Shown here: positions 8,738-49,682 of the stretch, in pieces | Position numbering within the stretch: the first letter of the stretch is position 1 | How the letters are laid out: every line of letters starts with the position of its first letter | NCBI RefSeq assembly: GCF_001701025.1 | Contig: NZ_CP016793.1 | Location: forward strand, 3,162,001 to 3,226,000 | Source of the DNA: Lentzea guizhouensis | Lineage (GTDB): Bacteria > Actinomycetota > Actinomycetes > Mycobacteriales > Pseudonocardiaceae | Direction: 5' to 3' | DNA length: 64,000 nucleotides | Translations under genes and position numbers: made by a program | The notes under the pieces: model-generated | Seen by the model: only the letters and a program-made list of their open reading frames with translations | Told to the model about the DNA's origin: nothing | Database searches by the model: none

Positions 8738-8790
8738 ATCACATCAGGCGAACGACCAAGGGGGTGATGTAGCTCTCCCCGGAGGTTCGT

Positions 8791-8817
8791 GCAACCGTTG
8801 GTGCCACACATTCCGTC
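8791..8817 (+). promoter_or_regulatory. ECF-type promoter before the first SigE-family sigma gene
   Basis: GCAACC (8791-8796), then 17 nt, then CGTC (8814-8817). The same pair with 16-17 nt spacing precedes the sigma genes at 10759 and 48525. The layout fits ECF promoters and suggests autoregulation. Confidence 0.55.
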
Positions 8818-8857
8818 CTGTCAGTGCAACTCGAGGAACGAGCGGAGAGCAGTCCGC

Positions 8858-9376
8858 GTGGATCAGCGCGACGAGCAGGAGTTCGCGGAGTACTTCGTGG
8901 CTCGCCGTGAGGCCGTGCGCCGAACGGCATACCTGCTGTGCGGCGACTGGCACCGCGCTGACGACTTCGCGCAGACGGCGTTCGTGGCGGTGCACAGGAG
9001 GTGGCGGAAGATCCGGGACAAGCAGGCCCTCGACGCCTACGTCCGGCGCACCGTGGTGCGCGCGGTGATCGACGAGTCCCGCCGTCCGTGGCGGCGCGAG
9101 AAGTTCACCGACGAGCTGCCGGAGGCTCCGGCGCAGGACAACGAGGTCGGCGACACCGTCGCGACCCGTGAGGCGTTGATGAAGGGCCTGCGCAGGGTTC
9201 CGCCGCGGCAACGGGCGGTGCTCGTGCTGCGGTTCCTCGAAGGGCTCGACGTGACGGCCACGGCCGAGGTGCTGAAGTGCTCGGAAGGAACTGTGAAGAG
9301 TCAGACCGCTCGCGGGCTGACCGCGCTGCGGGAAGCCCTCGGGGACGCGATCGACGACCTGCGACCGGCATCGTGA
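8858..9376 (+). CDS. SigE-family RNA polymerase sigma factor
   Basis: This 172-residue group IV (ECF) sigma factor has region 2 at about residues 10-75 (YFVARREAVRRTAYLLCGDW, DDFAQTAFVAVHRRW) and region 4 at about 110-165 (VPPRQRAVLVLRFLEGLDVT, KCSEGTVKSQTARGL). The frame is open upstream, but GTG 8858 (VDQRDEQEF) is preferred: it matches the N-termini of the two other sigma factors here and has GGAG 9 nt upstream. Its 29-bp distance to the following membrane-protein gene suggests that protein is its partner or anti-sigma factor. A GCAACC-N17-CGTC element upstream suggests it transcribes its own gene. Confidence 0.88.
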   Translation: MDQRDEQEFAEYFVARREAVRRTAYLLCGDWHRADDFAQTAFVAVHRRWRKIRDKQALDAYVRRTVVRAVIDESRRPWRREKFTDELPEAPAQDNEVGDTVATREALMKGLRRVPPRQRAVLVLRFLEGLDVTATAEVLKCSEGTVKSQTARGLTALREALGDAIDDLRPAS

Positions 9377-9405
9377 CGGGCGCGACCGGCGGAAGGAGGC
9401 TGTAG

Positions 9406-10092
9406 ATGGACGAGAACAAGCTCGCGGACCTGTTCCGCGACGCCGCGCACGACGCACCACCGGCGGCCTTCGACGTGTCGGACGTCCGCACCGCGTCGCG
9501 CAAAGCCACCCAGCGCAGGCGCAGTGCGATCGCCGGCGGAACGGCGCTGGTCGTGGTGCTCGGGTTCGGCGGCGTCGTGGCGGGTACCGACTGGGTGAAC
9601 CAGGACAAAGGCAGCGAGTCCGTCGCAGGTGCTGGCCAGCGGGAGGACAACTCGGCAGAATCGCCGCTGTCCGCACCGGCCGACCCGCCGGGGATGCAGA
9701 CGAAGGACTTCCCTGGCGACCCGTCCACGCAGGGGGATGTGGTCACGCCGGGAAGCGCCGACCCCAGTGTCGGCGGACGCGCAGTGCAGGGCTGCGCCGC
9801 GGTGGACCGGGAGCTCGCCGTCGCCCTCGCCGGAGAGCTTTCGGTCTCACCAGACGACGCGGTGCCGCCGAGCGTCACGTGCTCGCCACCGTCGCGCTCG
9901 GCCGCGTACAAGATCGACGGCCTGACCGTCACCGCGGTCGTCACGGCCGACGAGTTCGTGCCGCCGCCCGGCGCGGACACGGCGCAGGTCAAGACCGGCA
10001 CGGGTCAGGAGCTCTACGTCCTCACCCAAGGCGACGGCGAGCTGAAAGGCCAGGCCAAGCGGGTCGCCGAAGCGGTAGCACCGCGGTTCTGA
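9406..10092 (+). CDS. single-pass membrane protein, probable sigma-factor partner
   Basis: This 228-residue protein has a short cytosolic N-terminus (MDENKLADLFRDAAHDAPPA), basic residues (KATQRRRS), one transmembrane helix at about residues 45-63 (AIAGGTALVVVLGFGGVVAG), and an extracytoplasmic Ser/Pro-rich stretch leading to a C-terminal domain with two cysteines. No zinc-binding HxxxCxxC anti-sigma motif is present. Topology and position right after a SigE-family sigma gene match the pair at 10759/11289 and the fused protein at 48525. A role as anti-sigma factor or sensor is inferred from that repeated arrangement, not from a recognised domain. Confidence 0.7.
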   Translation: MDENKLADLFRDAAHDAPPAAFDVSDVRTASRKATQRRRSAIAGGTALVVVLGFGGVVAGTDWVNQDKGSESVAGAGQREDNSAESPLSAPADPPGMQTKDFPGDPSTQGDVVTPGSADPSVGGRAVQGCAAVDRELAVALAGELSVSPDDAVPPSVTCSPPSRSAAYKIDGLTVTAVVTADEFVPPPGADTAQVKTGTGQELYVLTQGDGELKGQAKRVAEAVAPRF

Positions 10093-10104
10093 CCGCGTGA
10101 CCAG

Positions 10105-10119
10105 TACTCTGGCCCGACT
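10105..10119 (+). promoter_or_regulatory. candidate -10 box for the TetR gene
   Basis: TACTCT (10105-10110) ends 9 nt before ATG 10120 with no ribosome-binding site between, which implies a leaderless or near-leaderless transcript. Confidence 0.35.
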
Positions 10120-10701
10120 ATGACGGCAGCAACTCCCAAGGGCGAGCGCCGCAGGCAGGCGCTCGTGGAGGCCGCGGCCGAACTGCTCGTGGAGGGCGGG
10201 TTCGACGCGGTCCGGCACCGCGCGGTCGCCGAACGCGCAGGTCTGCCGCTCGCGTCCACCACGTACTACTTCGACTCGCTCGACGAGCTGGTGACCGCGG
10301 CCGTCGAGCTGCACGGGCGCACCGAGCTCGCGAGCGGCAGGCGGAAGCTGGACGCGCTGCCGGAGGGCCCTGACGACGACGCGGTGGTCGAGCTGGTCCT
10401 CGACCTGCTGGTCGGCCCGGACGTGACCGACACCGAGACGATGCTGCTGCGCTACGAACGCCTCGTCGCGACCGGCCGCCGCCCCTACCTGCGGCCGTTG
10501 ATGCGCGCGATGGGCGCGGAGCTGCAGGACCTGATCGCCGCCATGTTCGCCCGCTCCGGCCGGGCGCTCTCCGCGGACCGGGTCGAGGAGCTGATCGCGT
10601 TGGTGGACGGCGCGGTGGTCAACGCGTTCATCGAGCTGAAGTCGGATCCGCGGGGTGTGGCGGCCAAGATGCTCCGAAAGGCCCTGTCGCGTCACGAGTG
10701 A
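10120..10701 (+). CDS. TetR-family transcriptional regulator
   Basis: This 193-residue repressor-type protein has an N-terminal helix-turn-helix at about residues 10-55 (RRQALVEAAAELLVEGGFDA, VRHRAVAERAGLPLASTTYYF), a clear TetR signature. The C-terminal ligand domain (DAVVELVLDLLVGPDVTDTE onward) resembles TetR_C proteins of actinobacteria, but the ligand is unknown. It lies between the two sigma/membrane-protein pairs on the same strand. The promoter element of the second sigma gene begins 2 bp after its stop. No palindromic operator stood out nearby, so its target genes cannot be named. Confidence 0.9.
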   Translation: MTAATPKGERRRQALVEAAAELLVEGGFDAVRHRAVAERAGLPLASTTYYFDSLDELVTAAVELHGRTELASGRRKLDALPEGPDDDAVVELVLDLLVGPDVTDTETMLLRYERLVATGRRPYLRPLMRAMGAELQDLIAAMFARSGRALSADRVEELIALVDGAVVNAFIELKSDPRGVAAKMLRKALSRHE

Positions 10702-10702
10702 T

Positions 10703-10728
10703 GCAACCCCGCGTTCCTCCGGTGCGTT
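10703..10728 (+). promoter_or_regulatory. ECF-type promoter before the second SigE-family sigma gene
   Basis: GCAACC (10703-10708), then 16 nt, then CGTT (10725-10728). It starts right after the TetR stop codon and matches the elements at 8791 and 48473. Confidence 0.55.
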
Positions 10729-10758
10729 CCCCTGGGTGAGGACGCGAGAGGGGATCGC

Positions 10759-11292
10759 ATGCGCAAGGCCGATGAACAGGGCTTCCGCGAGTTCGCGGCA
10801 GCCAATGCCGCGAGCTTGCGCCGCACCGCGTACCTGTTCTGTGGTGACTGGCACACCGCGGAAGACCTCATGCAGTCCAGCCTGATGAAGATGTACCTGG
10901 CCTGGAAGCGGATCAAGGGCCTGGACAACCTGATCGCCTACGCCCGCAAGGTGCTGCTGCGCACCTGGCTGGACGAGAAGCGCAGGCCGTGGCGCAGAGC
11001 CGAGCAGCGTGACGGGGAGCTGCCGGACGCCGCCGACGAGAGCGTGGACCCGGACAACACCAGCGCGAAGCTGTGGGCGCGTGAGCTCGTGCACACCGCG
11101 TTGCTGCAGGTCCCGCCGCGGCAACGGGCGGTGCTCGTGCTGCGTTACTTCGAAGACCTCTCGGTCGCCGAGGTGGCGGTGGCCATGGGGTGCTCGGAGG
11201 GAACGGTGAAGAGCCAGACGGCGCGTGGCCTCGCGACGCTGCGCACCATCGTGGAGAAGCTCGACAACAGTTCGGGGAGGGTCGCGTCGTGA
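10759..11292 (+). CDS. SigE-family RNA polymerase sigma factor
   Basis: This 177-residue ECF sigma factor is closely related to the one at 8858. Region 2 includes AANAASLRRTAYLFCGDWHT and EDLMQSSLMKMYLAWKRI; region 4 includes VPPRQRAVLVLRYFEDLSVA and MGCSEGTVKSQTARGLATLR. An AGAGGGGA ribosome-binding region precedes ATG 10759. Its stop codon overlaps the GTG start of the next gene by 4 bp, so the sigma factor and the membrane protein are translationally coupled and made in fixed proportion. That is the usual arrangement for a sigma factor and its membrane-bound antagonist. The upstream GCAACC-N16-CGTT element suggests autoregulation. Confidence 0.9.
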   Translation: MRKADEQGFREFAAANAASLRRTAYLFCGDWHTAEDLMQSSLMKMYLAWKRIKGLDNLIAYARKVLLRTWLDEKRRPWRRAEQRDGELPDAADESVDPDNTSAKLWARELVHTALLQVPPRQRAVLVLRYFEDLSVAEVAVAMGCSEGTVKSQTARGLATLRTIVEKLDNSSGRVAS

Positions 11293-12053
11293 GTGAGCAG
11301 GAGATCCGCGAGGGAATGCTGCTGGCCGTCTGGGACGAGCCGCCGCTCGACTTCGACCCCGACGTGCTGATGAAGCGGGCTGAACAGAAAAAAAGTCGCA
11401 GGCGAGCCCTGGTCAGCGTGGGAGTGGCCACCGCTCTGATCGCCGTGTCGGCGTTCGCACTGCCGAGCCTGCTGCCGAAGACCGGTGGTGACGACCAGAT
11501 CGCCTCGCAGCAGACCACGTCCCCGGCGCCCACCCCGACCGAGGCACCCGACGCCCGTGCGCTGCGCATCAGCAACGCCCTCGCGGAGAAGCTCGGCACG
11601 GAGGTGCCCGACCTGCGGGAGGTCTACGCCAACCTCCAGCCAGGGCCCGTGTACCAGCTCCCGTCATCGACCACGAGGTCGAAGGCACCGGGCACGCCTC
11701 CCGACCCGTCCCTGCACGGTTACGTGTACCTGACCGACTACCTCGGGCCGACCGCGCTGCAGGTGATCGGCTCGAAGAACCTGCAGAGCCAGCGGACCGT
11801 CTGCGCCGGTGCGCTCACCTGCAGGGAGCTGGGGCAGGAGGACGGGTCGAAGGTCTTCGCCGCCGAGTTCCAGGACGGCAACTCGACGGTCGTCCGCGCC
11901 GTGTCGAGCCGCATCTATCAGAGCGGCTACACCGTGCAGGTCATGGCGTTCACCACGAACCCGGCGACGGGCAGCGGTCTGCGCCAGGAGCTGCCGGTGT
12001 CTGTGGACGTGCTCACAGCGCTGGTCACCGACCCCCGCATCCGCTGGGAGTGA
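11289..12053 (+). CDS. single-pass membrane protein, probable sigma-factor partner
   Basis: This 254-residue protein starts at GTG 11289 inside the sigma stop (GTGA overlap). The cytosolic N-terminus (about residues 1-40) contains DEPPLDFDPDVLMKRAEQKK and a basic RRR. One transmembrane helix follows (ALVSVGVATALIAVSAFALP), then a Thr/Pro-rich linker and an extracytoplasmic domain with two cysteines (VCAGALTCRELG). The N-terminal region aligns with the linker of the fused sigma protein at 48525 (DEPESNIRRDTVIRAGRTK), which supports a role as the sigma partner. No zinc anti-sigma motif is seen. Function as anti-sigma or sensor is inferred from gene coupling and from this fusion. Confidence 0.72.
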   Translation: MSEQEIREGMLLAVWDEPPLDFDPDVLMKRAEQKKSRRRALVSVGVATALIAVSAFALPSLLPKTGGDDQIASQQTTSPAPTPTEAPDARALRISNALAEKLGTEVPDLREVYANLQPGPVYQLPSSTTRSKAPGTPPDPSLHGYVYLTDYLGPTALQVIGSKNLQSQRTVCAGALTCRELGQEDGSKVFAAEFQDGNSTVVRAVSSRIYQSGYTVQVMAFTTNPATGSGLRQELPVSVDVLTALVTDPRIRWE

Positions 12054-48472: not shown

Positions 48473-48513
48473 GCAACCCCCTACGGTCGTCGTTGCGTAC
48501 TAAGCGACGACCG
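48473..48513 (+). promoter_or_regulatory. ECF-type promoter and inverted repeat before the fused sigma gene
   Basis: GCAACC (48473-48478), then 17 nt, then CGTA (48496-48499), matching the elements at 8791 and 10703. A perfect 9-bp inverted repeat, CGGTCGTCG (48484-48492) and CGACGACCG (48505-48513), brackets the CGTA. The repeat could bind a repressor or fold in the early transcript. Confidence 0.55.
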
Positions 48514-48524
48514 AGGAGGGGGAC

Positions 48525-49682
48525 TTGGACCGTCGCGATCTGCGGGACCGCGAGTTCGGGGAGTTCGTCGACGCGCGTGCTCTCGTGATGCGCCGCACGG
48601 CGTTCCTGCTGTGCGGCGACTGGCACCGCGCCGAGGACATCGTCCAGACCGCGTTGATCAAGCTCTACGTGGCCTGGTCGCGCGTGCGCAAGGACAGCCT
48701 CGACGCCTACGCGCGCAAGATCGTCGTGCGGGCCGCCATCGACGAGACCCGGCGCGGGTTCTTCCAGCGCGAACGGTCCGTCGACGCCGTCCCCGACCGC
48801 GCGGCTCCCGAGGTGCACGAGGCCGATCCCGACCTGCGGCAGGCGCTGGACGCGTTGCCACCGGGGCAACGCGCCGTCGTCGTGCTGCGGTACTGGGAGG
48901 ACCTGAGCATCACCGAGACCGCCCGCATCCTCGGCAGGACGGAGGGCACGGTGAAGAGCCAGGCCGCGAAGGGCCTCGCCGCGTTGCGCGAGCTGCTGGT
49001 GGACGAGCCGGAGTCGAACATCCGCCGCGACACGGTCATCCGCGCCGGCCGGACCAAGCTCGCCCGGCGCCGGACGGCGGTCGCGGGTGCGCTGGTGTTC
49101 GCGCTGGTGGCGGGCCTGGGCAGCGTGATCTGGATGGCCAGGCCGCAGCTCACGTCGAGCAGTAACAGCGGGGGCAGCGCCACGTCGGGCACGATCGACC
49201 GCAGTTCTCAGCTCTCCTTCGTGCTGCGGCAGGCGAACGTCGTCCCGTCCGGCGTGGTGCTGCAGAACCCGCCGGGCGCGCAGGCTCTGCAGTTCGTGCG
49301 GGAGGACGGCCGGTACTCCGCCTCGGCGCTGCTGGTCGACGCCGGCGGCACGAGTGCGTTGACCGTGCGGGTGTACCGCGATCCCGCGGCGGTGCTTCCC
49401 GACTGCCGGCCGGGCGACGGCACCGACTGCCGCATCGAGGAGGTCGACGGCATCAAGGTCCGGTCGAGCATCGCGCGCCGGGAGGACGGTGCCTTCGCGC
49501 ACGACGTGCGCGCGTTGCGACCCGACGGAACGTACGTCGAGGTGAGCAGCGTGAACGTCGGAGCGTTCCTCCCCGACGCCCCTTCGACGCCGGACTGGAG
49601 CGCGGCGCGGTCACGGCAGGAACCGCTGCTCAACCGGGCCGCGCTGATAAAGATCGCGACACTGCCGGGTCTCACGCTCTAG
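48525..49682 (+). CDS. SigE-family sigma factor fused to a membrane/extracytoplasmic domain
   Basis: This 385-residue protein joins a sigma factor and a membrane partner. Residues 1-165 are the sigma factor: region 2 with TAFLLCGDWHRAEDIVQTAL, region 4 with LPPGQRAVVVLRYWEDLSIT and LGRTEGTVKSQAAKGLAALR. Residues about 168-195 are a linker (DEPESNIRRDTVIRAGRTK) that aligns with the N-terminus of the separate membrane protein at 11289. One transmembrane helix follows (AVAGALVFALVAGLGSVIWM), then an exported domain of about 160 residues with cysteines in LPDCRPGDGTDCRIEE. TTG 48525 follows GAGGAGGGGG. Activity would need release from the membrane or action in place. Confidence 0.85.
   Translation: MDRRDLRDREFGEFVDARALVMRRTAFLLCGDWHRAEDIVQTALIKLYVAWSRVRKDSLDAYARKIVVRAAIDETRRGFFQRERSVDAVPDRAAPEVHEADPDLRQALDALPPGQRAVVVLRYWEDLSITETARILGRTEGTVKSQAAKGLAALRELLVDEPESNIRRDTVIRAGRTKLARRRTAVAGALVFALVAGLGSVIWMARPQLTSSSNSGGSATSGTIDRSSQLSFVLRQANVVPSGVVLQNPPGAQALQFVREDGRYSASALLVDAGGTSALTVRVYRDPAAVLPDCRPGDGTDCRIEEVDGIKVRSSIARREDGAFAHDVRALRPDGTYVEVSSVNVGAFLPDAPSTPDWSAARSRQEPLLNRAALIKIATLPGLTL

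Follow-up and report, generated by a model that had tools for sequence, protein, structure and literature searches.

A SigE-family sigma factor gene probably fused once to its membrane partner in the genus Lentzea

Three sigma factors of the extracytoplasmic function (ECF) type are encoded beside, or joined to, a one-helix membrane protein in the window, by which we mean the whole stretch of 64,000 nucleotides of Lentzea guizhouensis that was analysed (contig NZ_CP016793.1, positions 3,162,001 to 3,226,000). Modules A and B are pairs of genes, a sigma factor followed by its partner, and gene C, which lies at the purM-arfB place, is a single fused gene. Our reading, to which we give a probability of about 0.6, is that gene C encodes a membrane-tethered ECF sigma factor that was formed once, by deletion, and is released by proteolysis, and that the partners in modules A and B are short, zinc-free anti-sigma factors. 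Its grounds, all observed here, are the architecture, the homology of the parts, the arrangement in relatives, the single fused clade, selection, and the conservation of the promoters. The features concerned, in coordinates of the window, are as follows.

8791..8816, + strand: candidate ECF-type promoter of module A, GCAACC-N17-CGT (GCAACC-N16/17-CGT in 24 of 24 genus genomes)
8858..9376, + strand: sigma A, SigE-family (TIGR02983) ECF sigma factor, GTG start
9406..10092, + strand: partner A, with about 38 cytosolic amino acids (aa), one helix, a proline-rich stretch and a small ectodomain (residues 128-228)
10703..10727, + strand: candidate ECF-type promoter of module B, GCAACC-N16-CGT (24 of 24 genus genomes)
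10759..11292, + strand: sigma B, SigE-family ECF sigma factor
11289..12053, + strand: partner B, with a cytosolic segment containing DEPPL, then RRR, one helix, and an ectodomain homologous to that of the fusion
48473..48498, + strand: candidate ECF-type promoter of fused gene C, GCAACC-N17-CGT (motif in 42 of 43 orthologous loci, fused and split)
48525..49682, + strand: fused gene C, SigE-family sigma factor plus membrane partner, 385 aa, TTG start
48525..49004, + strand: sigma part of gene C, regions 2 and 4, residues 1-160
49005..49025, + strand: predicted disordered hinge at the fusion junction, residues 161-167
49026..49124, + strand: one predicted helix of gene C, comprising the retained partner segment and the membrane span, residues 168-200
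49200..49679, + strand: predicted folded ectodomain of gene C, residues 226-385

Sigma A and partner A are separated by 29 bp, sigma B and partner B overlap by 4 bp (GTGA), and gene C is a single open frame in which sigma regions 2 and 4 are followed by one hydrophobic helix (approximately residues 184-202) and an outside domain. These positions and spacings had been given in an earlier note on this DNA, and all of them were correct. The purM-arfB interval was compared in 24 Lentzea genomes. The fusion is present without an internal stop in 22 of them, the source genome included, at 57-100% identity; one genome has the sigma factor and partner as two genes, and in one the gene is deleted with a scar left behind. 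The split form, in which the two genes overlap by 4 bp at the same place, belongs to the deep-branching Lentzea sp. NBRC 105346 (G019). The scar was found in G010, probably L. fradiae (locus L082), where the first codons of the gene are joined to its last ones, as an internal deletion leaves them. At this scar locus the -35 element has GCAGCC in place of GCAACC, which looks like decay once the gene was lost. The earlier note had named a missed stop codon or a frameshift, with the fused gene absent from close relatives, as what would undo the fusion. Such an artefact is excluded, as the gene is present and unbroken in 22 of the 24 genomes and its junction is of constant length.

At the level of the family, 79 of 297 genomes gave a match at 1e-50, and full-length matches occur only in the 22. 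Fifty-six of the matched genomes lie outside the genus, and the matches listed for them stop at or before query residue 206. Twenty loci from these genomes, representing six other genera, were taken for inspection, and all 20 consist of two genes with an overlap of exactly 4 bp. arfB was found in 18 and purM in 16 of the 20 stretches; two loci, L073 and L074, have neither. A collection of named genomes yielded 31 orthologs, 12 fused and 19 split, with the 4-bp overlap in 19 of the 19 split ones and the purM-arfB place kept in 30 of the 31. This collection is not independent, since 20 of the 31 are identical to earlier sequences, among them every one of the 12 fused; what is new in it are 11 split loci from Actinokineospora, Actinophytocola, Saccharothrix and Umezawaea. 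None of the 49 other loci of the collection is fused, and 47 of these have a one-helix partner. A record named Nocardia sp. NRRL S-836 (P0007, L124) groups inside Lentzea and is probably misnamed.

Two trees bear on the number of fusion events. In the tree of the neighbour genes purM and arfB (37 rows, after 6 of the 43 loci were dropped for a missing or cut neighbour gene), the fused rows form one clade (support 96/90), whose sister, within a genus supported at 100/99, is split NBRC 105346. The sigma tree (43 rows) likewise gives a single clade of fused forms (100/100). The simplest reading of these sequences is a single fusion event, from two genes to one, which would have taken place after the NBRC 105346 lineage had split off.

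What was removed and what was kept at the fusion can be read from the junction. The split partner has a homolog in the C-terminal part of the fused protein (E 2.6e-30), which aligns with it along its length, starting at the DEP of the partner. The distance from a fixed sigma motif to this DEP is 56 bp in 3 of 3 fused genes and 118 bp in 3 of 3 split genes measured, which gives a net loss of 62 bp, made up of the last sigma residues, the stop/start overlap and the start of the partner. Compared with the split form, the fusion has thus lost the last 8-9 sigma residues and the N-terminal helix of the partner (about 12 residues), and has kept the second, basic cytosolic segment, the membrane helix and the ectodomain. 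The EPP motif is found in 21 of 21 split partners and in 0 of 22 fused proteins, while the spacing from LRxLL to RRR is exactly 22 residues in every one of the 22 fused genes. Only four sites show fixed differences (at least 85%) between the 22 fused and the 16 near split rows, and one of the four is at the junction. A start codon inside the fused gene at this point, which could yield a free partner as well, was considered and rejected: no start codon is common to all 22 fused genes, and the commonest one near the junction is a TTG located in the sigma helix.

An ECF sigma factor is usually restrained by an anti-sigma factor of the membrane that is co-transcribed with it, and proteolysis sets the sigma factor free (PMC8999054). 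In modules A and B, and in the split form of C, the partner would hold the sigma factor at the membrane. As the comparison shows, the 62-bp net deletion, in an ancestor of Lentzea, joined the SigE-family sigma gene to its membrane partner, and holding would from then on be by a covalent tether. Since only the second cytosolic segment is left in the fusion, the tether itself would have to carry most of the restraint. The ectodomain may read an outside signal that leads to cleavage near the membrane and to release of the sigma factor, which would then act on the conserved GCAACC-N17-CGT promoter to transcribe the gene that encodes it. Inhibition, signal sensing, cleavage and self-activation are the parts of this scheme that we infer.

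GCAACC-N16/17-CGT, which we take to be the -35/-10 pattern expected of ECF promoters, precedes each of the three sigma genes: it is present in 24 of 24 genomes at A and likewise at B, and in 42 of 43 loci at C. This conservation suggests a self-activation that outlived the fusion. In the genome, the motif was found upstream of 5 of the 12 SigE-family genes and of 0 of 18 other ECF matches (Fisher p 0.006); without A, B and C, which defined the motif, the figures are 2 of 9 versus 0 of 18 (p 0.10). A looser pattern gave 5 matches in the window for 2.16 expected, and 5 were reached in 8 of 100 shuffles. The weight of the motif comes from its place and its conservation, not from counts.

The sigma regions of the fused genes are under purifying selection. 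The median pairwise ratio of nonsynonymous to synonymous substitution rates (dN/dS) is 0.14 in region 2 and 0.16 in region 4, and it reaches 0.58 in the hinge and 0.53 in the helix. For unfused partner B, values of 0.069 in the cytosolic segment and 1.02 in the ectodomain were obtained.

Several results weigh against a tethered, proteolytically released sigma factor born of one fusion. The sigma tree does not place NBRC 105346 alone as sister of the fused clade, but groups it with L073 and L074 (95/86). A fused gene in NBRC 105346 may thus have been replaced by a transferred split one, which is less likely because the purM-arfB place has been kept. AlphaFold2 gives no confident placement of the retained segment on the sigma part (predicted template modelling score, pTM, 0.49, with the hinge disordered). 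The ectodomain of the fused genes evolves nearly as if unconstrained (dN/dS 0.88), and since the gene has in addition been deleted in one species, it is dispensable. Lastly, the strict promoter pattern has 3 matches in the genome and 4 in a reversed control, giving no regulon beyond the gene itself; a regulon drawn from this pattern was rejected.

Among other explanations, it is unlikely that the fusion is active while in the membrane, the sigma part never being released and the ectodomain altering its activity by conformation. The single continuous helix predicted from hinge to membrane (residues 168-200) would agree with this, as would the 22-residue spacing, fixed as a geometric constraint would need, but the predicted disorder of the hinge is better suited to a flexible tether, and IutY, a characterised fusion of the same shape, is cut (PMC5411451). 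We also give little credit to the idea that the partners have no anti-sigma role, and either assist the sigma factor as positive co-factors or are envelope proteins of independent function that merely share the operon. It agrees with the lack of any known anti-sigma domain in the three membrane parts (Pfam, NCBIfam). Against it, the translational coupling by a 4-bp overlap is conserved across genera, the cytosolic segment of partner B is conserved though its ectodomain is not, and a fusion that has lasted is Rosetta-stone evidence that both parts act together.

A decaying locus, in which the deletion disabled control and left the fused gene on its way to loss, is improbable to a further degree. 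The scar in one species could be so explained, and so could the fast evolution of the gene: mean identity within the genus is 0.88 for the fused sigma part, below the 0.956 of sigma A and 0.977 of sigma B, and the stem branch to the fused clade is 0.38 in the sigma tree versus 0.044 for the neighbour genes. However, all 22 full-length genes are unbroken, their sigma regions are constrained and the promoter is kept. The fast ectodomain alone is no sign of decay, because partner B, in a two-gene module, shows the same contrast and has an equally fast ectodomain. Finally, the earlier note had read A, B and C as three stages, inside one genome, on a path from two-gene module to fusion, which is scarcely credible, for all the homology of the sigma parts and cytosolic segments, given that each locus keeps its arrangement in 24 of 24 genomes, that A, B and C form no resolved trio, and that the ancestor of the fusion already had the 4-bp overlap at its own place.

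The paralogs of the genome document this last point. In this genome of about 10 Mb, assembled in one contig, 10 matches to TIGR02983, the SigE-family model of NCBIfam, exceed the curated cut-off of 141.55 bits, and 12 lie above 140 bits; sigma A (162.8 bits), sigma B (156.7) and the fusion (157.3) are all above the cut-off. A clear one-helix partner lies directly downstream of 9 of the 12 genes, with a 4-bp overlap in five cases, a 2-bp gap in two, a 10-bp overlap in one and 29 bp in one (module A). Concerning the remaining three, the partner of L012 looks frameshifted, none was seen for L004, and the third is the fusion. The 4-bp overlap is the commonest state among the 12, and the fusion is unique among them. 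Module A keeps a gap (17-35 bp) in 24 of 24 genus genomes, and module B its 4-bp overlap in 24 of 24. In a paralog tree (19 rows), the sigma parts of A, B and the fusion have long branches inside a seven-gene group (99/97), with no resolution in the inner branching. From the arrangement fixed per locus and this placement on long branches, we conclude that A, B and C are old paralogs, in which the spacing is constant at a given locus and marks no stage. Each of A and B is a paralog in its own right, with the usual two-gene arrangement, and the 29-bp gap of module A has no support as an intermediate of anything. What holds of the single path is that the modules are homologous and that the tethered protein arose from a two-gene module; A, B and the fusion are not one series, and A and B were no steps toward the fusion, whose own ancestor, with a 4-bp overlap, lay at the purM-arfB place. 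Nor was a joint duplication of the three modules, for which the trees were checked, supported, as the inner branching of the seven paralogs lacks resolution. The L012 frameshift appears to fall between the cytosolic part of the partner and its membrane helix. The partner at L011 carries an outside domain of the LytR_cpsA_psr type (PF03816, E 5.6e-12), a possible link to cell-wall polymers; four other SigE-family partners of this genome had no Pfam match.

The likenesses that had been claimed between the modules held up well. Sigma regions 2 and 4 (PF04542, PF08281) are above cut-off in sigma A, sigma B and the fusion, and both motifs said to be common to the three sigma parts, CGDWHxA(D/E)D and GTVKSQ, were found in all of them. 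Of the 12 SigE-family genes that score best in the genome, 4 have CGDWHxA and 8 have GTVKSQ; these motifs are features of the family. The basic RRR precedes the helix in all three membrane parts, and the cytosolic segment common to the partners is beyond chance, with profile scores of 22.3 (A-C), 27.0 (B-C) and 23.1 (A-B) against a shuffle maximum of 15.6 (3 x 100 column shuffles). The earlier note had named unrelated membrane domains as what would refute its reading; this does not hold for the cytosolic part, nor for B and C over the full length. No relation was found for the ectodomain of A. The membrane parts of A, B and the fusion gave no Pfam or NCBIfam match over cut-off. Partner B matches the NCBIfam CU044_5270 family (NF038083) weakly, over residues 19-100 (18.2 bits, E 0.0017, for a cut-off of 100 bits), and this family is not among the matches listed for partner A or the fusion. 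The roughly 38 cytosolic residues of the partners read as a helix-PP-helix pattern, followed by one membrane helix; the predicted model of partner A has two short, low-confidence helices in this segment. Homolog alignments were built from 110 of 120 listed proteins in one case, and from 69 of 120 listed homologs plus partner A in another.

Proteins of the IutY type have an outside domain of the FecR type, and a domain of this type was not found in gene C, where Pfam gave nothing beyond the sigma regions at E values of up to 1. IutY of Pseudomonas putida (ECF243) is like the fusion in joining an N-terminal ECF sigma factor, one membrane segment and a C-terminal outside domain in one polypeptide, and is described as a sigma/anti-sigma fusion activated by proteolysis (PMC5411451). 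It is a cell-surface signalling protein of the aerobactin (iron) system, whereas gene C is of the SigE family, comes from a Gram-positive organism and has a membrane part without Pfam match; proteolytic cleavage, demonstrated for IutY, is expected for gene C by analogy. ECF48, ECF52 (SCO4117) and ECF53 are, like gene C, actinobacterial ECF sigma factors with C-terminal membrane extensions, and are thought to be released by proteolysis (PMC8999054, PMC5826349). As described in these sources, they carry a zinc-finger domain, and ECF52 a carbohydrate-binding domain as well; Pfam found neither in gene C, which has the membrane helix without the zinc finger. Gene C differs from them also in that its unfused state is still seen in the same genus.

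In length and apparent helix pattern, the cytosolic segment of the partners fits that of CnrY, of the CnrY/CnrH pair, and of other class II anti-sigma factors, in which two helices in a short segment wrap the sigma factor. Helix 1 of CnrY lies on sigma region 4 and helix 2 on sigma region 2 (PMC7406223); unlike CnrY, the fusion is without the first helix, and sigma binding by the partners here is putative. Class I domains (ASDI, including zinc-binding ones) measure at least 50 aa, with a mean of 101, and some have Hx3Cx2C (PMC7406223), whereas the cytosolic segments here are of about 38 aa, with no Hx3Cx2C by eye and no Pfam anti-sigma domain. A match to PDB 4tmd, the M. smegmatis ortholog of Rv0999, is at 9% identity and says nothing on mechanism. 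No description of this fusion was found in the literature searched, a search to which subscription papers and the 2021 ECF classification were external.

Independent fusions were sought among the best 120 of 160 matches, plus 15 from a second search. By eye, P0079, P0088, P0090, P0117, P0122, P0127, P0131, P0133 and P0137 have a membrane helix behind a clean sigma-like part and are leads, while P0126, P0128, P0129, P0132, P0134 and P0136 appear to carry frameshifts; precomputed domains assign P0138 and P0139 to the zinc-finger types. In the metagenome proteins P0088 and P0090, a SigE-family sigma factor runs straight into a membrane helix, without the cytosolic partner segment. P0127 had matches in 0 of 397 genomes, a result that shows little without a known positive. 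P0131 was not confirmed as a fusion: sigma-only matches were found in 12 of 394 genomes, and the 8 inspected were all of two genes with a 4-bp overlap.

Around the modules themselves, a few further elements were seen. Upstream of sigma A, a block GGGGGTGATGTAGCTCTC (8760-8777) is exact in 23 of 24 genus genomes, the leader GAACGAGCGGAGAGCAGTCCGC (8836-8857) is exact in 22 of 24, and a second TGCAA(C) copy lies past the promoter; this conservation exceeds the needs of a promoter. Between modules A and B, at 10120-10701, is a gene that by eye resembles a TetR-type regulator. An inverted repeat surrounds the -10 element of the fused gene (48484-48513). It has perfect arms of 8-12 bp in some orthologs and is absent from others, with paired arm changes in a few (by eye); as perfect arms occur in only some loci, it was rejected as a general operator.

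Fused and membrane-anchored ECF regulators are already known (IutY, ECF48/52/53), and what is new here is a member free of zinc fingers, together with a nearly complete record of its origin and loss: the ancestral two-gene form, a single fusion, the exact junction and the later loss, all within one genus and at one conserved place. It is possible, though doubtful, that the fusion discarded the helix expected on sigma region 4, so that tethering, not occlusion, became the inhibitory principle and ECF sigma factors can be silenced in two ways. If this were true, Lentzea would keep an occluded two-protein form (NBRC 105346), a tethered form (22 genomes) and a loss (one species), as a natural experiment with a place on the tree. 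The persistence of the ancestral split form in a close relative and in the other genera examined gives the fusion a position on the family tree and opens its effect on signalling to a direct test. Swapping the fused and split forms would test if a covalent tether suffices in place of an anti-sigma domain, and if the short partners found with SigE-family sigma factors, which are zinc-free, have an anti-sigma role in the first place.

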